A stretch of 64,000 nt of DNA, taken from Acuticoccus sp. I52.16.1. GTDB lineage: Bacteria > Pseudomonadota > Alphaproteobacteria > Rhizobiales > Amorphaceae. Below are positions 25,832 through 36,571 of this stretch, one piece after another (within the stretch, counting starts at the first letter, position 1; the number at the start of each line of letters is the position of its first letter). The position numbers and the translations under genes were made by a program. Where the stretch lies: assembly GCF_022865125.1 (NCBI RefSeq), contig NZ_CP094828.1, forward strand, positions 3,899,219-3,963,218, in the 5' to 3' direction. The notes under the pieces are model-generated. The model was not told the origin of the DNA and did no database searches. It saw only the letters and a list, made by a program, of their open reading frames with translations.

Positions 25832-27232
25832 ATGAGAAACGAGACACCGCTTCGCCACAGCGCGCCGGGCTGGAGTCCGTCCAGCTGGCGCGCCAAACCG
25901 GCCAAGCAGATTCCCGAGTATCCCGATACCGCGGCGGTCGACGCCGTGGAGAAGCGCCTCGCGTCCTATCCGCCGCTCGTTTTTGCAGGTGAGGCGCGCG
26001 CGCTCAAAGCCGAGCTGGCCGAGATTTCCGAGGGTCGTGGTTTCCTGCTCCAGGGCGGGGACTGCGCCGAAGCCTTCGCCGAGCATCACCCGGACGGCAT
26101 CCGCGACTTCTTCCGCGTCTTCCTGCAGATGGCGGTCGTGCTGACCTACGGGTCGGCGTCCTCCGTCACCAAGGTCGGCCGCATCGCGGGCCAGTTCGCC
26201 AAGCCGCGCTCCTCGCCGATGGAGAAGCGCGACGGGATCGAGCTGCCGTCCTACAAGGGCGACATCGTCAACGGCATCGAGTTCACTGAGGAAGCGCGGA
26301 TCCCCGATCCGCAGCGCATGGAAATGGCGTACCGCCAGTCGGCGGCGACGTTGAACCTCCTGCGCGCGTTCGCCCAGGGCGGCTACGCCAACCTCGACAA
26401 CGTGCACTCGTGGATGCTCGGCTTCGTCGAGGATTCGCCCCAGGGCCATCGATACCGTGCCTTGGCCGATCGTATCTCCGAGTCGCTCGAGTTCATGCGC
26501 GCCTGCGGGGTGTCCGCCGAGTCGACGCCGCAGCTCCAGTCGACCGAGCTCTATACCTCGCACGAGGCGCTGCTGCTGGGCTACGAGCAGGCCTTCACGC
26601 GCGTCGACTCGCTGACCGGCGACTACTACTCGACCTCGGGTCACATGATCTGGATCGGTGATCGCACGCGCCAGCCGGACCACGCGCACGTCGAGTATTG
26701 CCGCGGCGTCAACAACCCGCTGGGGCTGAAGTGCGGCCCGTCGCTGACGGCCGACGGGCTGATCGAGCTGTTGGATCTCCTCAACCCCGACAACGAGGCA
26801 GGGCGGATGACGCTGATCTGCCGCTTCGGCGCGGACAAGGTGCTCGACCACCTGCCGGCGCTGATCCGCGCGGTGAAGCGGGAGGGCAAGAAGGTCGTGT
26901 GGTCGTGCGATCCGATGCACGGCAACACGATCTCTGTCGCCGGCTACAAGACGCGCCCGTTCGACCGGGTGCTGAAGGAGGTGCAGTCGTTCTTCGCGGT
27001 GCACCGGGCCGAGGGCACGCACGCCGGCGGCATCCACATCGAGATGACCGGCACCAACGTGACCGAGTGCACCGGCGGCGCCCGCGCCGTCACCGAGGAC
27101 ACGCTGTCGGACCGCTACCATACGCACTGTGACCCGCGCCTCAACGCCGAGCAGGCGATCGAGCTGGCGTTCCTGATGGCCGAGAACCTCCAGGCCGAGA
27201 AGCGCGACCGCACCGCCAGCAAGGCGGCCTGA
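25832..27232 (+). CDS. aroG: 3-deoxy-7-phosphoheptulonate synthase, class II
   Basis: Joins phosphoenolpyruvate and erythrose 4-phosphate in the first step of aromatic amino-acid synthesis. The 466-aa protein is a full class II (plant/Mycobacterium type) enzyme: [15 protein letters not shown] near the start, [12 protein letters not shown] with the metal-binding cysteine, [22 protein letters not shown] and [15 protein letters not shown]. It has no separate regulatory domain. It is followed by a strong intrinsic terminator, and a hairpin lies directly before its start. Confidence 0.96.
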
Positions 27233-27323: not shown

Positions 27324-28529
27324 TCAGCTCTCGCGGGCGACGAGGTGGGCTGCGCCGGCCGCCGCGGCACAGACGGCGAAGACGGCGAAGACGACGGCAG
27401 TCGCGTCGTAGGTGACGGCGAAGCCGTGCGCGGCGATCATCGGCTCGCTGCCGAAGGGCGACAGGAACCGCCCCAGATACATGCTCATCGTCACGATCCC
27501 CGCCGTCATGCCGCGCCGGGCGGCGGGGGCGGCGTCGAGCGCGAGTGTCACGAAGTGGGGCGACACGGTGCCGAAGCCGGCGCCGATGGCCGCCCCCGCC
27601 AGGGCCATCGCCGGGCCAGTCGCCGCGCCTGCCAGCGCCGCGAAGCCCGCCCCCATCGCCGCGAAGCCGAGCGCCATGGTCGCCGCGCGGCCGAACCGCA
27701 TCCGCAGCGGCTGCGCGCCGAGGGCGCCGACTCCGCCCGCCAGCATCAAGGTGCCGAGGACGAGGCCGGTGGTCGCCGCGCCGTCCAGCCCGCGGACCTC
27801 GGCGGCGAAGGGGATCTGCGTCGGCATCAGGAAGAAGAGGGCGCCGGTGAGGATCTGCCCGCCCGCCGCCACTGCGACGACGAACGCCCAGCCGCGCCGC
27901 CCTTCGCCCGCCGTCCCCGCCGCCGGCCGCCGCCCCGGCACCTCCGCGCCCGCCAGCACGCGCCACATGAACGGCGCGAAGAGGAGCGGCAGGGCGTAGA
28001 CCGCGAACGGCAGCCGCGCCGACTGCCCCGCCAGCGTGCTCGCCAGCATGATGAAGACGAACCCGCCCCAGTTGATCGCCGCGAACTGGTAGCTGGAGAA
28101 GCGCCCGCGCGCCTCCCCGGCGTAGATGTCGCCCAGCAGTGCGGTCTGCGCCGTCATGATGAGCGCCATCGGCAGCCCGAGCAGGAAGCGGCTCGCCAGG
28201 ATCCCTCCCAGCGTCGGCAGAACGAGACCCGCCGTGCCGACCAGCGCGAAGAGGACCACGCCGAGGACGAGGAGCGGGCGCCGCCCCCAGCGGTCCACCG
28301 CCGCGCCGCAGAAGGGCGCCGCCAGCGCCACCGTCAGCGACGGCGCGCTGACGAGGAGGGGCAGCAGGAGCGCGGTGTCGGGCGCATCGGCGAACTCGCC
28401 GGCGAGGCCGGGGAGGGCGGGGCTCACCGTGGCGTTGGTCATGATGTTGAGCGTCGCCGCCAGCAGCAGCGCGTGGGCGCGCGGGTCGCGCCAGATGGGG
28501 CGTGGGGCGGTGGTGGATGGAGCGTGCAT
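27324..28529 (-). CDS. MFS transporter, probable drug efflux
   Basis: A 401-aa inner-membrane protein with about twelve hydrophobic segments and the MFS motif A variant GAAVDRWGRRPLL after segment 2. It resembles 12-segment proton-linked exporters. Its gene is divergent from a MerR-type regulator, and the spacer holds a promoter of MerR/SoxR type reading into it, so it is the likely regulated target. The substrate is unknown; toxic or redox-active compounds would fit the control. Confidence 0.88.
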   Translation of the reverse strand: MHAPSTTAPRPIWRDPRAHALLLAATLNIMTNATVSPALPGLAGEFADAPDTALLLPLLVSAPSLTVALAAPFCGAAVDRWGRRPLLVLGVVLFALVGTAGLVLPTLGGILASRFLLGLPMALIMTAQTALLGDIYAGEARGRFSSYQFAAINWGGFVFIMLASTLAGQSARLPFAVYALPLLFAPFMWRVLAGAEVPGRRPAAGTAGEGRRGWAFVVAVAAGGQILTGALFFLMPTQIPFAAEVRGLDGAATTGLVLGTLMLAGGVGALGAQPLRMRFGRAATMALGFAAMGAGFAALAGAATGPAMALAGAAIGAGFGTVSPHFVTLALDAAPAARRGMTAGIVTMSMYLGRFLSPFGSEPMIAAHGFAVTYDATAVVFAVFAVCAAAAGAAHLVARES

Positions 28530-28566
28530 CGGGGCCTCGGACTTGCGGTTTCTCGGATCCGGCGCG

Positions 28567-28597
28567 AGGCTACGAATTCAAGTCGACTTGAGGTCAA
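28567..28597 (-). promoter_or_regulatory. MerR/SoxR-type promoter for the MFS gene
   Basis: On the minus strand a -35 TTGACC (28592-28597) and a -10 TAGCCT (28567-28572) are separated by 19 bases, the overlong spacing used by MerR-class activators. The spacer contains the perfect 14-bp palindrome TCAAGTCGACTTGA (28578-28591), which matches the SoxR box pattern (CTCAAGT..ACTTGAG) in all but its centre and edge. Confidence 0.75.
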
Positions 28598-28599
28598 GC

Positions 28600-29022
28600 A
28601 TGCCTTTGATGGATATATCTGCCGTCGCGCGGCACTCGGGTCTGCCGGCGTCGACGTTGCGCTACTACGAAGAGAAGGGCCTCATCGTCTCGGTCGGCCG
28701 CAGCGGGCTGAAACGGCTCTTCGAGGCGACGGTGCTGGAGCGGCTGTCGCTGATCGCGCTCGGTCGCACGGCCGGCTTCTCGCTGGACGAGATCGGCGCC
28801 ATGTTCGGGTCCGACGGCCGCCTCGCGATCCAGCCCGCCGACCTGGAGGCCAAGGCCGAGACGCTCGACCGCACGATCCGCAAACTGAGCGCGCTGCGCG
28901 ACGGACTGCGCCACGCCGCCGTCTGCCCCGCGCCCAGCCACATGGAGTGCCCGACATTTCGCCGCATGATGCGCCTCGCCGGGCATCGCGGGCGACCGGA
29001 AGGGCCGCTGCCGCGCCGCTGA
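28600..29022 (+). CDS. MerR-family transcriptional regulator
   Basis: A 140-aa regulator with the MerR winged helix at the start (MDISAVARHSGLPASTLRYYEEKGLI), a dimerisation helix in the middle and a short tail with two cysteines in CPAPSHMECPTF. The tail does not have the four-cysteine iron-sulfur motif of SoxR, so its signal is unclear even though its operator looks SoxR-like. It is divergent from an MFS exporter and probably controls both genes from the palindrome nine bases before its start. Confidence 0.9.
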   Translation: MPLMDISAVARHSGLPASTLRYYEEKGLIVSVGRSGLKRLFEATVLERLSLIALGRTAGFSLDEIGAMFGSDGRLAIQPADLEAKAETLDRTIRKLSALRDGLRHAAVCPAPSHMECPTFRRMMRLAGHRGRPEGPLPRR

Positions 29023-29116: not shown

Positions 29117-30688
29117 ATGCGCGACACCTTCACCGTCTCGATCCAGCAGCTCAACCCGGTGCTGGGCGATGTCTCGGGCAACCGCGCCGTGGCCGAGGCG
29201 GCCTGCCGCGCCGCCGACGCGGACCTCGTGGTGTTCCCGGAACTCTTCCTCAGCGGCGCGCCGCCGCACGACCTCGCCCGCATGCACGGCTTCGCCCGGC
29301 GGTGCATGGCCGAGGCGGAGGCGCTCGCCGCCGCGCTCGCCGCCGGGCCGGCCGTCGCCATCGGCACGCCGTGGCTGGAGGAGGGGCGGCTCACCAACGC
29401 CTGCGCGGTGTTGCAGGGCGGTGCCGTCGCGGTCGTGCGTCACAAGGTGGAGGTGCAGGACGGCCCGCCGTTCGACGAGGCGCGCGTCTTCGCCTCGGCC
29501 GACATGCCGGGCCCGGTGGACATCGACGGCGTGCGCGTGGGGCTGCCGATCGGCGAGGACCTCTTCGGGGCAGACGTGGTGGAGTGCCTCGCCGAGACCG
29601 GGGCGGAGATCCTCATCGTGCCCACCGCCTCGCCGTTCACGCCGGTGGAGGCGGACCGGCGGCTCAACGTCGCCGTCGCGCGGGTGGTGGACAGCGAGCT
29701 GCCGCTGGTGATCGTCAACGCCGTCGGCGGCCACGACGAGTGGGTGTTCGACGGCGCCTCGTTCGCGTTGGGCGCGGACCGGCGGCTGACGCATCAGCTC
29801 CCCGCGTTCGTCCCCGCCTCGGCCCGGCTCGTCTTCCGTCGCGGACCGCGGGGGTGGACGCTGGAGCCGGGGCTGTCCGCGACGATCCCGGACGGGGCGG
29901 CCGCGCGCTGGGCCGCGGCCGTGCTCGGCCTTCGCGACGCGGTCCGCAAGGCCGGCGCGGGGCGGATCGTGCTGGAGCTGGCCGGCGGGGTGGACGCCGC
30001 CGTCGCCGCGGCGCTCGCGGTCGACGCGTTGGGTGCCGACGCCGTCGACGCGGTGGTGTTCGATCCGCCGCCCGAGGCCGCCGCGGCCGCGCTCGCCACT
30101 ACGCTCGGCCTGGCGCCGCGGCCCGTCGCGCTGGCGCCGGCGTTGCGCGCGGTGGACGGCCTGGCGCTGGGGCCGGCCGGGGCGGCCGAGCTGCGCGCCG
30201 GCATCGCCCGCGGTGTCCTGGGGGCGCTGGCCGAAGATGGCGGCGCGCTGGTGGTGCGGGCCGGCAGCGCGACGGCGATCGCGCTGGGGCAGGGACCGGT
30301 GGGCGGCGGGCTGAACCCCATCGGCGACCTCGACCGGACCGACGTCAAGGCGCTGGCGCACTGGCGCGACGTCCACCGCCCGGACGGGGCCCTCGGCCCT
30401 GCGGGGCCGCTCTTCCCGCCGCCGCTGCTCGCCGCGCCCATCGGTCTCGGCGCCGACGCGCCGGAGGACGTGGTGCTCGACGCGATCCTCGGCGCGCTCC
30501 TGGAGCGAGACGCCGACGTGGACGAGCTGGTCGCGGAAGGTTACGAGGCTGACACCGTGCGGCGGTTGGCGCGCCGGGTGACCGATGGCGAGGCCATGCG
30601 GCGCCGGGCGACGCCACGGCTGCGGCTGGCGCCTCGGCCGGCCGGAGATCGCCGCTACCCGATCACCAACCGGTATCGTGATGCCTGA
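29117..30688 (+). CDS. NAD synthetase (NadE)-like protein lacking catalytic residues in both domains
   Basis: A 523-aa homologue of glutamine-dependent NAD synthetase: nitrilase-type glutaminase domain (about 1-260), then a PP-loop synthetase domain with the family ending RRYPITNRYRD. In the glutaminase triad E42 and K110 are kept, but the nucleophile position in PIGEDLF is Gly146 where active enzymes have CED. In the synthetase domain the PP-loop SGG-D-S reads AGGVDAA (289-295), the TGNKSE block reads RAGSATA, and the PSRYTS segment is replaced by alanine-rich sequence. The frame is open and ends overlapping gltX by eight bases. It cannot work as a normal NadE; a structural or regulatory role, or early decay, are the options. 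Its ATG at 29117 follows AAGGA. Confidence 0.8.
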   Translation: MRDTFTVSIQQLNPVLGDVSGNRAVAEAACRAADADLVVFPELFLSGAPPHDLARMHGFARRCMAEAEALAAALAAGPAVAIGTPWLEEGRLTNACAVLQGGAVAVVRHKVEVQDGPPFDEARVFASADMPGPVDIDGVRVGLPIGEDLFGADVVECLAETGAEILIVPTASPFTPVEADRRLNVAVARVVDSELPLVIVNAVGGHDEWVFDGASFALGADRRLTHQLPAFVPASARLVFRRGPRGWTLEPGLSATIPDGAAARWAAAVLGLRDAVRKAGAGRIVLELAGGVDAAVAAALAVDALGADAVDAVVFDPPPEAAAAALATTLGLAPRPVALAPALRAVDGLALGPAGAAELRAGIARGVLGALAEDGGALVVRAGSATAIALGQGPVGGGLNPIGDLDRTDVKALAHWRDVHRPDGALGPAGPLFPPPLLAAPIGLGADAPEDVVLDAILGALLERDADVDELVAEGYEADTVRRLARRVTDGEAMRRRATPRLRLAPRPAGDRRYPITNRYRDA

Positions 30689-32036
30689 AATCGTCCGCTT
30701 CGCTCCGTCGCCCACCGGCGAGATCCACATCGGCAACGCCCGCACGGCGCTGTACAACTACGCCGTCGCGCGACAGACCGGCGGCACCTTCATCCTGCGG
30801 TTCGACGATACCGACGTGGAGCGCTCCGAGGCGCGGTTCGCGGAGGCGATCGCGGCCGATCTCGCCTGGCTCGGCATCCGCCCGGCGACGCTGGTGCGCC
30901 AGTCCGACCGCCTGGCGCTGTACGACGACGCCGCGGACCGATTGCGCGCCGCCGGCCTCCTCTACCCGTGCTACGAGACGCCGGACGAGCTGGAGCGCAA
31001 GCGTGCCCTCCAACGCGCACGCGGCCATCCGCCCAAGTACGACCGCGCCGCGCTCGCCCTCGCCGACGCGGACCGGGTCGCGCTGGAGGCGCAGGGGCGC
31101 CATCCGCACTGGCGCTTCCGTCTGCCGGACGGCGCGCGCACCTGGGACGACCGCTGCCGCGGCGAGCAACGCGTCAACCTCGACGCCATCTCCGATCCGG
31201 TGCTGGTGCGCGCCGACGGCAGCTACCTCTATACCCTGACCTCGGTGGTGGACGACGTCGACATGGGCGTCACGCTGATCGTGCGGGGCGAGGATCACAT
31301 CACCAATACCGGCGTACAGATCGCCCTGTTCGAGGCGCTGGGGGCGGCTGCGCCCGCCTTCGCGCACCACAACCTCCTCACCCGCAGCGACGGCGAGCCG
31401 CTCTCCAAGCGCGACAACCCGCTCTCGCTGACGCGGCTGCGCGGGGACGAGGTGGAGCCGATGGCGGTCGCCTCGCTGGCGGTGCTGACGGGGACCTCGC
31501 AGCCGGTGGAGCCGGTGGCCGACCTCGGCGCGCTGTGCGCGCGGGCCGATCTCGCCGCCGTCTCGCGCGGGCCGGCGACGTTCGATCCGGCGGACGTCAC
31601 CCGCCTCAACGCCGCGCTCCTGCACGAGATGCCTTACGAGGCGGTCGCAGGATGGCTGGCGGAGACCTACGGGGTGAGCGATCCGGCGGTGTGGACGACG
31701 CTGCGCGGGAACCTCGCCCGGCGGACCGACATCGCGCCGTGGGTGGCGATCCTGCGCGACGGCCCGGCCGCCGTGCCGCCGGCGGAGGGGGATCGCCCGG
31801 TGCTCGCCGCCGCGCGCCAGGCGCTGCCGCCCGAGCCGTGGGATGAGAGCACCTTCAAAGGGTGGACCGCGGCGGTGAAGGCCGCTACCGGGGCCAAGGG
31901 CAAGGGCCTCTTCATGCCGCTGCGGCTGGCACTGACGGGCGAGGCACAGGGCCCGGAACTCGCCGCCTTCCTCCTCCTCCTCGGCCGCGAGGAGACCTCC
32001 CGCCGCCTCGACGCCGCGCTCTCCCGCGCGCCCTGA
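30681..32036 (+). CDS. gltX: Glutamyl-tRNA synthetase
   Basis: Charges tRNA-Glu (and often tRNA-Gln) with glutamate. The 451-aa class I synthetase has the HIGH-type motif PSPTGEIHIGNAR (residues 8-20) and a KMSKS variant EPLSKRD (about 240-246). It is slightly shorter than many GltX proteins, as in the second GltX copies found in alphaproteobacteria. The ATG at 30681 lies inside the last codons of the NadE-like gene, so the two are translated in coupling. Whether this is the only gltX of the genome is unknown. Confidence 0.93.
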   Translation: MPEIVRFAPSPTGEIHIGNARTALYNYAVARQTGGTFILRFDDTDVERSEARFAEAIAADLAWLGIRPATLVRQSDRLALYDDAADRLRAAGLLYPCYETPDELERKRALQRARGHPPKYDRAALALADADRVALEAQGRHPHWRFRLPDGARTWDDRCRGEQRVNLDAISDPVLVRADGSYLYTLTSVVDDVDMGVTLIVRGEDHITNTGVQIALFEALGAAAPAFAHHNLLTRSDGEPLSKRDNPLSLTRLRGDEVEPMAVASLAVLTGTSQPVEPVADLGALCARADLAAVSRGPATFDPADVTRLNAALLHEMPYEAVAGWLAETYGVSDPAVWTTLRGNLARRTDIAPWVAILRDGPAAVPPAEGDRPVLAAARQALPPEPWDESTFKGWTAAVKAATGAKGKGLFMPLRLALTGEAQGPELAAFLLLLGREETSRRLDAALSRAP

Positions 32037-32100: not shown

Positions 32101-33615
32101 TCAGCCGCCGCGCGGTCCTTCGAGGGGGCCGCGGGCCTCTTGCTGTGCGTCCGTGGTGGCGCCGGCGGGGGCATCGCCCGTCGCCGGATGCGCCTGCGGG
32201 CCGGGGGCGTCACCCTCGGTGGCGGGCGGCGCGGCGAGCGAGGCCGGAGCGAGGGTGCCGGAGGCCGCCGGCGTCAGCGTCGCCGCCTCGGCGTCGGCCG
32301 CGGCCGGCGTGACGGGCGAGGCCGCCGAGGGGGCGGTCGACGATGCGACCGGCGTCGTCGCGCGCGGGGCCGCCGAGCGCGGGGTCGTCGTGCCGAGGGG
32401 GATCACGGTGACGGCGGTCGTCGCGATCATGCCGGTGGTCTTGGGGCGGGCTTGGGCGACGGCCGGCTCGCTGACGTACTTGGAGAAGAACTGCGGGCCG
32501 ACGTCGCGATACCGGTGGTCGCCTTCCATCGCCATCGTCGGGTTGGAGGCGACGCGGCGCGGCGCGTCGGGCAGGGTCAGCCCGGTGAGACGGGTTGGCG
32601 CCTCGGACGTGCGGTCGGTCTTGAGGGGCGGCAGCGGCTTGCCCGTCTCGTCGTAGACGGCTTTGAACGGCGTCCACTCGACGATCTCCGGCGCCGGCGC
32701 GTCGGAGGCCGTCTGCTCGTCCGCCTTCAGCGAGGCGACCACGGAGTCGACCACCTTCTCGTCCGGCGAGCCGGTGGACATCGGCTGGCAGCCGCAGCCG
32801 GAAACGGAGCGCTTGCGGTAGGCGAACGCGGTCGGCAGCGTCACATAGCGCTCGCCGGTCATGGTCGAGCGCATGCTCTCCACCGGCGAATCGCTGCCGT
32901 GCGCGTAGAGCGAAACGTCCGCCCCCGGACAGCGGCCGATGCACATGGCGAGCTCGTCGTAGAAATTGTCCGAATGGGAGCGGCTGTTGATGGGGAAGTA
33001 GAAGCCGTCGCACAGACGCACGCACACGGTGCGATAGTTGCCGACACGCATCTGCCCCTTCACGTGCCCGCTGGAGCGCGTCGCGGCGGAGACGTACGTC
33101 TCGCCACCGCCGGAGGCGGCGCGGTTGGGCCGCGCGGAGTTCAGGTCCAGCCGCTCGACGCCGTTGGCCGGGGCGGTGCTGACGACCCGCACCTCCTCCC
33201 GGCTGCGCGAGTTGCCGAACAGGCTGGAGAAGATGCCGCGGTTGCGCTTGCCCTCGGTGTGGACGCCGGTGACGACGCGCCCGCCGATCATCATGGTGCT
33301 TTCACGCGGGGCGGGCTCGCGGCGGGTGGCGACGCGGCTCGGCGCACACGCCTGCTGCACCTGCCGCTGCAACGCGGCGACCTGCCGGCCGCTGCCCGCG
33401 CGGGCCATGCGCGCCTCGATCCCCGCGCAGGCGCGATTGCGCCCGTAGCGGGTGGAGGCGTCGCACCGATAGGCCTTGTACTGCGAGCGCAGGCTGGCCA
33501 TGTCGCCACCACCGCTCTGCGCTGCCGCCAGCTGCTTGCGCAGGGAATTGCACGACTGAGCCGCCGCCTCGCCGACGAATAGCACAGCTATGAGGGCAGC
33601 AATCAGAAGGCGCAT
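32101..33615 (-). CDS. Secreted DUF2865 protein
   Basis: A 504-aa exported protein: signal peptide MRLLIAALIAVLFVGEAAA, a cysteine-rich N-terminal region (CNSLRKQLAAAQ, YRCDAS, CAGIEARM), and the DUF2865 core VCVRLCDGFYFPINSRSHSDNFYDELAMC with SLYAHGSDSP. The last 150 residues are Ala/Pro/Thr-rich and low in complexity. DUF2865 is found mainly in Rhizobiales and has no known role; a periplasmic cell-wall function is only a guess. The ATG at 33615 is fixed by GGGGAAG and the signal peptide. Confidence 0.85.
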   Translation of the reverse strand: MRLLIAALIAVLFVGEAAAQSCNSLRKQLAAAQSGGGDMASLRSQYKAYRCDASTRYGRNRACAGIEARMARAGSGRQVAALQRQVQQACAPSRVATRREPAPRESTMMIGGRVVTGVHTEGKRNRGIFSSLFGNSRSREEVRVVSTAPANGVERLDLNSARPNRAASGGGETYVSAATRSSGHVKGQMRVGNYRTVCVRLCDGFYFPINSRSHSDNFYDELAMCIGRCPGADVSLYAHGSDSPVESMRSTMTGERYVTLPTAFAYRKRSVSGCGCQPMSTGSPDEKVVDSVVASLKADEQTASDAPAPEIVEWTPFKAVYDETGKPLPPLKTDRTSEAPTRLTGLTLPDAPRRVASNPTMAMEGDHRYRDVGPQFFSKYVSEPAVAQARPKTTGMIATTAVTVIPLGTTTPRSAAPRATTPVASSTAPSAASPVTPAAADAEAATLTPAASGTLAPASLAAPPATEGDAPGPQAHPATGDAPAGATTDAQQEARGPLEGPRGG

Positions 33616-33749
33616 GGAACTTCCCCAATCGGTTTTCGGCCAAACGCTAACTGCAGGTAAATAAGCAAGCGGCGTCAAACCCACAACGAACCGACGATAC
33701 GTCCGTTGCATAGGCTTAATGAATTAGGGCTGAGCGAGCGTGGGTTCGT

Positions 33750-35261
33750 CTACCTTTCCGGTGGATATGCCATCCCGAGCTCACGGACTCGTGACAGATC
33801 GGCAACGAATTGTTCGAACTCCGATCGCTTCGCGTCGGGGTCCGGGAGACGCAGCAGATAAGACGGATGAATGGTGATCAATCCATGGTCGCCGTTGGCC
33901 CAGGCGAGGGCCCGGCCACGCTCGCGGCCGATGCTGACCGCGCGCCCCATGAGCGCCTGCGCCGCCGTCGCGCCCAGCGCCACCGTCAGCCGCGGCCGCA
34001 CCAGGTCCCGCTCCGCCTCCAGCCAAACGCCGCATGCATGGACCTGCGACAGCGTCGGCTTCTGGTGGATGCGCCGCTTGCCGCGTGGCGTGAATCTGAA
34101 GTGCTTCACCGCATTGGTGATGAACGTCTGCGCCCGGTCGATGCCGGCGGCGGCGAGCGCCTCGTCGAAGAGCCGGCCCGCGGGGCCGACGAAGGGGCGC
34201 CCGGCGAGGTCTTCCTGGTCGCCGGGCTGCTCGCCCACGAACATGATCGGCGCGCCGGGCCGCCCTTCGCCGACCACCACCTGGGTCGCCGGGCCGTAGA
34301 GCGGACAGCGGGTGCAGTGCGTGGCGGCACGGGCGAGGTCGGCGAGGGTGGCGATGTCGGCCGCGGCGGCGGCGCCGGCGTCGTCCTGCGCGCGCCGTTC
34401 GCGGGCGACGCGGGTGGAGCGGGCCGGGGTGCGTGTCGGCGCGGCGACCATGGCCTCGGTGCGCCGGCCGGCCGCCTGGATCAGCGGCGTGATCAGCGCC
34501 GCCTCGGGCATGTTCTTCCAGTAGCGCTTGGGCATCTCGGACTGCATCGCCTTCACCTTCAGCCGCGCCGGGTTGAAGATCGCGCCGAAATAAGTGCGCC
34601 ACAGCTCCTCGTTGACGTCGCCGCCCGGCGCCACGTCGCGCGCGGCGCCCGGACCCGTCGCCAGGATCTCGCCGTCCCAGTGGGCCGAGCGGTCCGGCGT
34701 GAGGATCGACCAGCGCATCTCCGGGAAACGGCGCATGAAGAACGGCGCGGTGCGGTCCAGCGTGTGGTGCTCTGGCTCGAACCAGGCGACGAAGCGGGCG
34801 ATGCCGTCGGCGTCATGCGTCTCGCGGAAGCGCACGAAGGCCTTCATCTTGTGCGAGCAGCGGGCGACGTTCTTGGCCATCGTGCGCGCCTTGGCGACGT
34901 CCGGGTCGCTGGCGATCTCCAGAAGCTTCGGCTCGGCGGCGAACCGCTCCAGCAGGCGGTGCGCCAGGACGAACCGCTCCGGCGCGCGGTGGCACACGAG
35001 GGCCTCGGCCAGCGCCGGGAAGTCGCGGGGGGCGCGCGGGGCGTCGACCGGGGCGGGCTCCGGCAGCTCGTCGACGTGGCGGTCGGCACCGAAGAGGCTG
35101 CGCGGCACCTCGCCGACCACCCAGTCCACATCGCGTGCCGGCACGCAGCCGGCGGTCAGCTTGCGGGCGGCGGCGCGGAAGGTCGCGAAATCCGCCGGGT
35201 GGTCGAGCGTGACCGTCCAGCGCGGGGTCCGCTCCGCGCGGGCGAGGGCGGCGGCGGTCAC
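33750..35261 (-). CDS. UdgX-type uracil-DNA glycosylase fused to an N-terminal DUF4130 domain
   Basis: A 503-aa fusion. The N-terminal part (about 1-230) is the DUF4130/SAM_7-link domain, and the C-terminal part is a family UDG domain with iron-sulfur cysteines (CTRCPLY), the uracil-binding loop GEQPGDQEDLAGRPFVGPAG (near 345) and the UdgX signature KRRIHQKP (near 397-404). In UdgX the histidine of this loop forms a covalent bond with the DNA at the uracil site. The GTG start at 35261 overlaps the radical-SAM stop by four bases. The pair is a recognised but poorly understood DNA-repair module, here behind a LexA-type box. Confidence 0.9.
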   Translation of the reverse strand: MTAAALARAERTPRWTVTLDHPADFATFRAAARKLTAGCVPARDVDWVVGEVPRSLFGADRHVDELPEPAPVDAPRAPRDFPALAEALVCHRAPERFVLAHRLLERFAAEPKLLEIASDPDVAKARTMAKNVARCSHKMKAFVRFRETHDADGIARFVAWFEPEHHTLDRTAPFFMRRFPEMRWSILTPDRSAHWDGEILATGPGAARDVAPGGDVNEELWRTYFGAIFNPARLKVKAMQSEMPKRYWKNMPEAALITPLIQAAGRRTEAMVAAPTRTPARSTRVARERRAQDDAGAAAAADIATLADLARAATHCTRCPLYGPATQVVVGEGRPGAPIMFVGEQPGDQEDLAGRPFVGPAGRLFDEALAAAGIDRAQTFITNAVKHFRFTPRGKRRIHQKPTLSQVHACGVWLEAERDLVRPRLTVALGATAAQALMGRAVSIGRERGRALAWANGDHGLITIHPSYLLRLPDPDAKRSEFEQFVADLSRVRELGMAYPPER

Positions 35262-36571
35262 GGCGCGGCCTCCGCGGCTCCGGCGGCGGCGGTGGTGGCG
35301 GCGGCGGAGCTGGCGGTGGCGAATAGGTCGAGCTGGCGGGCCGGCGGCAGGAAGCGCTGGCGCAGGTTCGCCGTGTCGATCAGCCGGCCGGGATGCCAAC
35401 CTTCCAGCGCGACGAAGGGCTTGGCCTTGCGGGCCGTCGGCGTCAGCCGGGCGAGGTCCTCCAGGCGCATGCGTCGATGGCGCCGCGTGCGCACGATGGC
35501 GTCCACCGCCTTCACCCCGAGGCCCGGCACGCGCAGGAGCTGCTCGCGCGGCGCTCGGTTGACGTCCACCGGGAAGTCCGCCCGGTTCGCCAGTGCGAAG
35601 GCGAGCTTGGGGTCGATGTCGAGGTCGAGCATTCCGCCGTCGGTGGCGCGCTCCAGGTCGTCGAGCTCGTAGCCGTAGAAGCGGGTGAGCCAGTCGGCCT
35701 GGTAGAGGCGGTGCTCACGCACCAGGGGTGGTGCTGCGGGCGGCAGCGCGGAGGATGCGTCCGGAACCGGCGAGAAGGCGCTGTAGTAGACCCGTCGCAG
35801 ATCGTACGAGGTATAGAGATTGCGGCTCGTGGTGAGGATCGTGAGATCGCTCGCCCCGTCCGCGCCGACGATCATCTGGGTCGACTGCCCGGCCGGCGCG
35901 AAGCGTGGTGCGCGGCGGCGGCTCTGGCGCGTGGTGTCGCGCGCGGCGTCGATCCCGGTGCGCAGCGCCGCCATCGACGATTTGATCGTGCGTCCGCTCT
36001 TCTCCGGCGCCAGGGCGGCGAGCCCGCGCTCGGTCGGCAGCTCGATGTTGATCGACAGCCGGTCCGCCCACCGTCCCGCCTCGGCGATCAGCGCTGGCGA
36101 GGCGTCGGGGATGGTCTTGAGGTGGATGTAGCCCTGGAAGCCGTGCGCCACGCGCAAGGTGCGGGCGACGCGCACGACCTCCTCCATCGTATGGTCGGCC
36201 GAACGGACGATCCCGGAGGAGAGGAACAGCCCCTCGATGTAGTTGCGCCGGTAGAAGGCGAGGGTGAGGTCGACCACCTCGTCCGGCGTGAAGGCCTCCC
36301 GCTCCACCCGGCTCGACACGCGGTTGATGCAATAGGCGCAGTCGTAGATGCAGGCGTTCGTCAGCAGCAGCTTCAACAGCGAGATGCAGCGGCCGTCCGG
36401 CGCGTAGGCGTGGCAGATGCCCGAACCTTCGGTAGAGCCGATCCCGCCCGAGGTGCGCGCATTGCGCTTCGTGGTGCCCGACGAGGCGCAGGAGGCATCG
36501 TATTTCGCCGCGTCGGCGAGGATGGCGAGCTTCTCTTGCAACGAGCGGATTCGGCCGGAATAGGGCGGCAT
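35258..36571 (-). CDS. Radical SAM protein, UDG-linked putative DNA modification/repair (TIGR03916-like)
   Basis: A 437-aa radical-SAM enzyme with the 4Fe-4S motif C74-x3-C78-x2-C81 (TNACIYDCAYCINR) and a C-terminal helix-hairpin-helix (REQLLRVPGLGVKAVDAIV) that suggests DNA binding. The start MPPYSGRIRSLQEKLAILADAAKYDASC fits the rSAM_link_UDG family. It leads a two-gene operon with the UdgX fusion, joined by a GTGA overlap. The ATG lies ten bases from a GTTC-N7-GTTC box, so SOS control is likely. The chemical reaction is not known for the family. Confidence 0.9.
   Translation of the reverse strand: MPPYSGRIRSLQEKLAILADAAKYDASCASSGTTKRNARTSGGIGSTEGSGICHAYAPDGRCISLLKLLLTNACIYDCAYCINRVSSRVEREAFTPDEVVDLTLAFYRRNYIEGLFLSSGIVRSADHTMEEVVRVARTLRVAHGFQGYIHLKTIPDASPALIAEAGRWADRLSINIELPTERGLAALAPEKSGRTIKSSMAALRTGIDAARDTTRQSRRRAPRFAPAGQSTQMIVGADGASDLTILTTSRNLYTSYDLRRVYYSAFSPVPDASSALPPAAPPLVREHRLYQADWLTRFYGYELDDLERATDGGMLDLDIDPKLAFALANRADFPVDVNRAPREQLLRVPGLGVKAVDAIVRTRRHRRMRLEDLARLTPTARKAKPFVALEGWHPGRLIDTANLRQRFLPPARQLDLFATASSAAATTAAAGAAEAAP

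Follow-up and report, generated by a model that had tools for sequence, protein, structure and literature searches.

A NAD synthetase homologue upstream of gltX that has lost the catalytic motifs of both domains and is probably retained as a pseudoenzyme

The 64,000 nucleotide stretch of Acuticoccus sp. I52.16.1 DNA analysed here (the window) carries, directly upstream of gltX, a full-length homologue of the glutamine-dependent NAD synthetase NadE2 that has lost the catalytic motifs of both of its domains. Based on shared losses, a second NAD synthetase and codon models, we consider dead NadE2 likely to be a selected pseudoenzyme. With somewhat less assurance, we favour an account in which such pseudoenzymes derive from the native dimeric NadE2, keep the glutaminase fold for protein contacts, and have arisen recurrently within the order.

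Results

The pseudo-NadE2 gene and its predicted fold

The genome of the window is called G000 and that of its sister species G005; both belong to family f1 (10 genomes). The features are as follows:

25832..27232, + strand: class-II DAHP synthase gene (aroG), the neighbour upstream of pseudo-nadE2
29117..30688, + strand: pseudo-NadE2, 523 codons and a stop (523 aa)
29117..29806, + strand: glutaminase-like (nitrilase-fold) domain, codons 1-230; nucleophile lost, purifying selection
29258..29260, + strand: codon 48, Tyr to Ala in the GYPPED motif, relative to intact orthologues
29453..29464, + strand: codons 113-116, the former LPNY at the start of a YRE-type loop (loop role from an excerpt of PMC6946656)
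29552..29554, + strand: codon 146 (GGC), the nucleophile Cys replaced by Gly
29912..30556, + strand: synthetase-domain remnant, codons 266-480; relaxed selection
29981..29998, + strand: codons 289-294, the former PP-loop SGGxDS, now AGGVDA, relative to intact orthologues
30260..30277, + strand: codons 382-387, the former TGNKSE block, now AGSATA, relative to intact orthologues
30557..30685, + strand: C-terminal tail, codons 481-523
30681..30688, + strand: overlap of pseudo-nadE2 and gltX, 8 bases
30681..32036, + strand: gltX (glutamyl-tRNA synthetase), the conserved neighbour downstream

The original prediction described a 523-codon open NadE homologue with Gly146 at the nucleophile, a dead PP-loop and no TGNKSE block; compared with 46 intact orthologues, this observation is confirmed. 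Pfam assigns CN_hydrolase to residues 7-229 and NAD_synthase to residues 266-493. The NAD+ synthase equivalog model PRK13981 matches the full length at 343.8 bits, under its cut-off of 479; the other eight dead copies described below score 108.8-352.2 bits, placing all nine below the cut-off, while eight of eight intact relatives, used as a control, score 789-825 bits. Pseudo-NadE2 is 48-54% identical to six intact family f1 orthologues, and its best-scoring solved relative by sequence is 4F4H from Burkholderia thailandensis, whose NadE is grouped with the dimeric NadE2 enzymes in the consulted part of PMC7196632. A structure predicted from 26 sequences has a mean pLDDT of 87 and its Foldseek matches are NadE structures (3n05, 4f4h, 5kha); a model built from two sequences only reaches a pLDDT of 35. 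Overall, identity, conserved neighbourhood and predicted fold establish common descent and a common fold with NadE2.

The DNA here has a GC content of 69.6%, and an antisense open reading frame of 691 aa spans the same place; because GC-rich DNA also yields this long antisense frame, the open frame of pseudo-NadE2 is weak evidence by itself. Sequencing error or an assembly artefact was rejected as the source of the losses, because the sister species carries a copy that is 70% identical and shares the main losses; the orthologue with the same residues lost, which the original prediction had asked for, thus exists.

Residues lost and kept

The reference for reading the dead copies was the set of 46 intact orthologues; loci L027 and L031 lie outside this set, and L111, which the ORF finder missed, was left out of it. 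Compared with this set, the PP-loop SGGIDS has become AGGVDA in G000, with loss of the PP-loop serines, and the PTAELRENQxDxDSLPPY block is mostly deleted. Further losses in G000, absent from the original prediction, are Tyr48, the LPNY loop (113-116), Trp150, Asn170 and Gly171. Glu42, Lys110 and Glu121 are retained; the C-E-K glutaminase triad is therefore incomplete, with E42 and K110 present and Gly146 in place of Cys. The PP-loop (ATP loop) of the G005 copy reads EDDVES. Of the near-invariant positions, both species keep 45 of 60 in the glutaminase domain; the synthetase domain retains 32 of 96 and the tail 14 of 21.

Across the nine dead copies, position 146 is always Gly, and Y48, N115, Y116, C146, W150, N170 and G171 are lost in every one; at position 48, seven copies have Ala and two have Gly. 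Glu42 is retained in eight of the nine, Lys110 and Glu121 in seven each, and only three copies have Ser or Thr at position 147. A scan for named relatives, at least 401 of them confirmed, gave mainly Hyphomicrobiales along with other Proteobacteria; in the best 80 of the 401, E42, K110, C146 and the PP-loop positions tested are unchanged in 80 of 80, and the exceptions elsewhere are one row with Tyr116 replaced and another in which TGNKSE is not covered. Expressed relative to the identity among 35 intact sequences, the identity of dead to intact copies falls to 0.35-0.53 in four active-site segments, and the remaining twelve segments stay at 0.79-1.02. The top value (1.02) belongs to the helix at 152-164, which we take to be part of the nitrilase A-surface. 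Members of the nitrilase superfamily dimerise across the A-surface, according to the consulted part of PMC4700190.

The E42-Y48 and K110-Y116 spacings are six residues each, as in the Mycobacterium enzyme, where Glu52-Tyr58 and Lys121-Tyr127 are each six apart and Tyr127 contacts glutamine (excerpt of PMC6946656). Judged by motif spacing, Tyr116 would be the counterpart of this glutamine-contacting Tyr. Concerning the nucleophile, a single non-synonymous, non-stop step from a TGC codon yields Gly with a probability of 0.11-0.24 across the models tried; with two origins, the chance that both give Gly is 0.01-0.06, and the chance that all do falls to 0.001-0.013 with three and to 0.00002-0.0008 with five. 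In nitrilase-type enzymes the catalytic Cys occupies the apex of the nucleophile elbow, where its conformation is energetically unfavourable (passages of PMC4812014), and Gly at 146 would relieve this strain in a domain whose folding is still required.

A second NAD synthetase

As the original prediction had anticipated, a second nadE with intact motifs is present in the genome: NadE1 lies at C1:4559103-4561133 (NF002730, 1052 bits) with its CED, SGGLDS and GDLSE motifs all present. Moreover, a motif-intact NadE1 occurs in all nine genomes holding a dead NadE2; judging from these motifs, NadE1 would supply their NAD synthetase activity. Within the 10 genomes of family f1, NadE1 was found in G000, G002, G005 and G009, and the six genomes without it carry a full-length, motif-intact NadE2, including the congeners G001, G003, G004, G006 and G007. 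The NadE1 locus is syntenic in G000, G002 and G005 and sits elsewhere in G009, and the NadE1 tree has the form ((G000,G005)98,G002). The concatenated species tree joins G000 and G005 with a support of 74, from an alignment that includes two ORFs overlapping in different frames, one of them probably spurious.

Searches for full-length NadE2 gave no match in the NadE1-bearing genomes G002, G009, G051 and G053 of the 61-genome sample, and a nadE2 remnant was not found upstream of gltX in G002 (best tblastn E 0.011, 18 kb). The NadE2 role is thus dispensable in G002, since NadE1 is present and there is no NadE2 trace beside gltX, which weighs against a selected role. Intact NadE2 motifs coexist with NadE1 in G013, G032, G043 and G058, so the presence of NadE1 need not lead to a dead NadE2. 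The association of dead NadE2 with NadE1 presence has p 0.025 in a Fisher test (2/10 vs 0/51); this result was not used, the genomes being related and the 51 incompletely read. Separately, G059 (98% complete) has neither a full-length NadE2 match nor an NF002730 match; it may have a different type of NAD synthetase, or the assembly may lack the gene.

Gene neighbourhood and the gltX overlap

In family f1, gltX follows nadE2 in all eight genomes having nadE2 (a contig end cuts gltX in G001), and a class-II DAHP synthase gene lies upstream in seven of the eight; it was not found in the stretch fetched around the G004 nadE2. The eight-base overlap at 30681-30688 was correctly predicted. It had also been read as a hint of partnership with gltX, a reading that is not supported: the same overlap lies beside intact nadE2 in G003, G004 and G006, and is therefore ancestral, and gltX sits ~0.3 kb (G135), 1.1 kb (G084) and 2.8 kb (G276) beyond the dead gene in three other genomes. 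In G007, an intact nadE2 touches gltX. The native nadE2 neighbours lie on both sides of the dead gene in G276 and in G135, and gltX flanks that of G084; the fetched surroundings of the dead genes of G402, G443, G414 and G452 contained neither neighbour, and there was no gltX match within ~2.2-2.7 kb downstream of those in G414 and G452. The computed SD pairing of gltX is 0.0 in G005 and G006, +1.2 in G003 and G004, and -3.0 in G000; it is -4.0 in G002 and -4.7 in G009, where nadE2 is gone from the site, and -4.0 in G007, which has an intact nadE2.

Other genes of the neighbourhood were noted in passing. An MFS transporter gene (- strand) and a MerR-type regulator gene (+ strand) occupy 27324-29022 between the DAHP synthase gene and pseudo-nadE2 in G000; this segment is an insertion or a local loss, because the corresponding gap in G005 is only about 330 bp. 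Convergent to gltX lies a gene for a DUF2865 protein (32101-33711, - strand), which is matched in eight further genomes of the family (37-62% identity). Further on, at 33750-36571 (- strand), a DUF4130 and uracil-DNA-glycosylase fusion adjoins a radical-SAM/helix-hairpin-helix protein; the two genes are also adjacent in G002, G003, G005 and G007.

Other dead copies and the number of origins

Dead NadE2 was found in nine genomes of four families (G000, G005, G135, G276, G084, G402, G443, G414 and G452). In the order sample of 397 genomes, 13 with a reduced best match were re-searched together with six others (19 in all), and residue readings cover seven of these 13 (G135, G276, G084, G215, G343, G207 and G324) plus the six others; because reading of the other genomes in the sample was incomplete, the number of dead copies is at least nine. 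A 61-genome family search with 12 loci listed led to G402, G414, G443 and G452; five loci outside that listing were fetched, these four and G426, which is intact. G084, G135 and G276 are single finds; those of G084 and G276 are shortened, the two lengths being 457 and 445 aa. Apparent frameshifts split nadE2 at L210 (G215) and L201 (G207), with the readable active-site motifs kept; these are assembly errors or fresh breaks, and both were excluded from the count of dead copies as seemingly frameshifted intact genes.

A single dead lineage for all nine copies was rejected (AU p 0.0065, KH 0.0136; SH 0.0698). One origin of the seven copies outside family f1 is not rejected (AU 0.415), and neither is the placement of G000/G005, G135, G084 and G276 with relatives of their own families (AU 0.18). 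Three groups appear in the best glutaminase tree: G000 with G005; G135 within its own family (support 97.7/96); and the f35 copies with G276 (89.4/98 for G276 and 98.3/96 for G084 with the f35 dead copies). In the full-length tree, G135 also joins the f35 dead copies, weakly (20.6/73). The grouping of G084 and G276 with the f35 dead copies would favour fewer origins, unless long branches mislead; the linker of G084 is 77% identical to that of its intact congener G418 and at most 54% identical to those of other f35 dead copies, which counts against grouping G084 there. Overall, at least two origins are supported; the best tree shows three, and as many as five are possible.

Selection on the two halves

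The two halves of the gene have diverged differently between G000 and G005. In codons 1-250, synonymous codon differences (64) outnumber amino-acid-changing ones (43); codons 276-475 show the opposite, with 35 synonymous against 92 amino-acid-changing, and the last 23 codons have 6 synonymous differences and 0 that change an amino acid. In pairwise codon maximum likelihood (MG94 type), the omega of the G000-G005 glutaminase half is 0.074, compared with 0.064-0.113 in five intact pairs; for residues 231-480 it is 0.306, compared with 0.054-0.069, and for residues 266-480 it is 0.231. The tail has an omega of 0.147 vs 0.005-0.054 in intact pairs, several with time at bound. Likelihood ratio tests against an omega of 1, which for this pair rest on one loss preceding the split of the two species, give p 9e-28 for the glutaminase half and p 5e-8 for residues 231-480. 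A GY94-type model, run for the dead pair only, gives lower omega values (0.043 and 0.137). Synonymous sites are near saturation, several pairwise times exceeding 4, and the comparison with intact pairs was therefore weighted above absolute omega. In a control on the same bases read in other frames, omega is 1.6-4.0 in four frames and 0.153 in one antisense frame, the last a control artefact.

Branch models assign the glutaminase half a background omega of 0.081, a stem of 0.85 and tips of 0.051 and 0.161; the tips cannot be told from background (p 0.15). In the synthetase half, the tips reach 0.242 and 0.483 vs a background of 0.057 (p 0.003), and the stem yields no omega estimate, its length having reached the bound. 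Overall, constraint on the glutaminase half of G000 and G005 resembles that in intact enzymes, and constraint on the synthetase half is four- to fivefold weaker. The G414-G452 pair, from one genus and without the C-terminal tail, agrees for the glutaminase half: its omega is 0.137 there and 0.151 in the synthetase half, and three intact pairs of the same family have 0.14-0.17 and 0.066-0.105. For G402-G443 the values are 0.142 and 0.192. Against its intact congener G418, G084 has omega values of 0.233 (glutaminase) and 0.606 (synthetase), above those of intact pairs, which is milder constraint.

Discussion

Shared catalytic loss beside a paralogue, whose activity is read from its motifs, is found in G000 and G005, as is purifying selection after the loss; both are what a pseudoenzyme would display. 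The non-catalytic role that the original prediction proposed is likely, given the second NadE, the shared losses and the codon tests; the purifying selection it expected appears chiefly in the glutaminase half, so that the evidence comes mainly from the N-terminal half.

The proposed course of events begins with an ancestor of G000, G005 and G002 that, from the comparison of these genomes, would have gained a NadE1 of another lineage, making NadE2 redundant. NadE2 then lost its glutaminase nucleophile, the neighbouring loops and the synthetase ATP/NaAD motifs, as seen in G000 and G005, and nadE2 is gone beside gltX in G002. After the shared loss, codon models indicate selection on the glutaminase half as in intact enzymes, and several-fold relaxation of the synthetase half. 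The function that was kept would be a nitrilase-fold binding surface and not chemistry; the change of Cys to Gly fits this step, because a domain that still folds no longer needs the strained catalytic elbow. The last and weakest step concerns the partner, which would most likely be PII or a PII-regulated NAD synthetase, and the dead glutaminase domain could be a PII dock that competes with NadE1 or is tethered to it.

The proposal of such a binding module arises because the retained half is the one that distinguishes the NadE isoforms that are GlnZ targets. In Azospirillum, both glutaminase-bearing NadE isoforms were identified as targets of GlnZ, a PII protein, and the isoform without that domain was not; the authors speculate that GlnZ docks on the NadE glutaminase domain (consulted sections of PMC7646526). 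Further, NadE2 is subject to NAD+ feedback inhibition, which PII relieves (excerpt of PMC7196632), and the G000 genome has two P-II genes. By this analogy PII is the leading candidate partner, and as a specific identification it is doubtful. The broader suggestion, that after takeover by NadE1 the NadE2 protein became the same non-catalytic dock regulating PII or NadE1 on two or more occasions within the order, conceivably as many as five, is tentative and somewhat easier to entertain.

The main rival, which we hold to be rather unlikely, is slow decay: NadE2, redundant after NadE1, would be eroding, its frame held open by GC-rich DNA and by coupling to gltX, since a frameshift or stop would harm a gene that is overlapped by eight bases and apparently lacks a good ribosome site. 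Erosion agrees with the relaxed synthetase half, with its GC1 (0.90 in G000 and 0.80 in G005 vs 0.64-0.67 in five intact copies), with the loss of nadE2 in G002 and G009, and with the shortened copies of G084 and G276. When combined with gltX coupling, it may also explain the tail and the weak gltX ribosome site, SD pairing being weak in most overlap species and stronger in G002 and G009, which are without nadE2. However, SD strength is not strictly tied to nadE2, as the G007 value illustrates, and coupling cannot explain the G414-G452 pair, because gltX has no match in the ~2.2-2.7 kb downstream. Moreover, the glutaminase omega equals that of intact enzymes in both G000-G005 and G414-G452, the G000 and G005 tips are indistinguishable from background, and Gly at the nucleophile of all nine copies is unlikely to arise by random single steps. 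The original prediction held that simple decay would combine intact relatives with frameshifts or relaxed selection; the congeners are indeed intact and relaxation is seen in the synthetase half, but the reading frame has no break and no relaxation can be measured in the glutaminase half.

Two further readings would assign the dead sites a direct task. A sensor of glutamine or NAD, in which the dead sites still bind the ligand and report it, had been suggested originally and could draw on the retention of Glu42, Lys110 and Glu121 in most copies and on the allosteric NAD+ site of dimeric NadE2 (part of PMC7196632). It is weakened to the point of being very unlikely: six residues of the active-site segments (Tyr48, Asn115, Tyr116, Trp150, Asn170 and Gly171) are lost in all nine copies, Tyr116 among them matching the glutamine-contacting Tyr by spacing, and the PP-loop is destroyed, reading EDDVES in G005. 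A new catalytic activity in place of the old could account for a stem omega of 0.85 followed by renewed constraint in the glutaminase half; it is the least credible reading of all, as Gly146 is universal among the nine, a Ser or Thr at 147 occurs in three only, and the active-site loops show no new shared residue set.

If the broader suggestion of repeated conversion into a dock is true, it would describe a recurrent route from a two-domain amidotransferase to a regulatory subunit. A takeover followed by repeated conversion to a dead, apparently selected protein would be a natural experiment on the other roles of the glutaminase domain, and dead NadE2 opens to direct test the questions of where on NadE PII docks, and why. 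The finding is also a caution for annotation pipelines, since some genes labelled nadE probably do not code for a NAD synthetase. Among the papers listed from the open-licence literature on NadE and on nitrilase-type pseudoenzymes, none seemed to deal with a dead NadE.

Comparison with known systems

The GlnZ-NadE2 and GlnZ-NadE1 complexes of Azospirillum brasilense share with the proposed arrangement the glutaminase domain common to the GlnZ-target isoforms, as far as the consulted parts of PMC7196632 and PMC7646526 describe them; there the partner is an active enzyme, whereas pseudo-NadE2 is a putatively inactive candidate partner. The dimeric glutamine-dependent NadE2 (PRK13981, 4F4H) is alike in its two-domain architecture, predicted fold and gene place before gltX, and differs in that pseudo-NadE2 has lost the catalytic motifs of both domains and scores below the equivalog cut-off. 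NadE1 (the PRK02628 model, which we take to be that of the octameric Mycobacterium-type NAD synthetase) also has the two domains, but belongs to a separate lineage, lies at another locus and keeps its catalytic motifs. Pseudoenzymes in general are catalytically dead paralogues retained as scaffolds or regulators, and dead NadE2 has in common with them the loss of catalytic residues with retention of fold and selection; pseudoenzymes are already known as a kind, and the recurrent origin is the unusual feature of dead NadE2.
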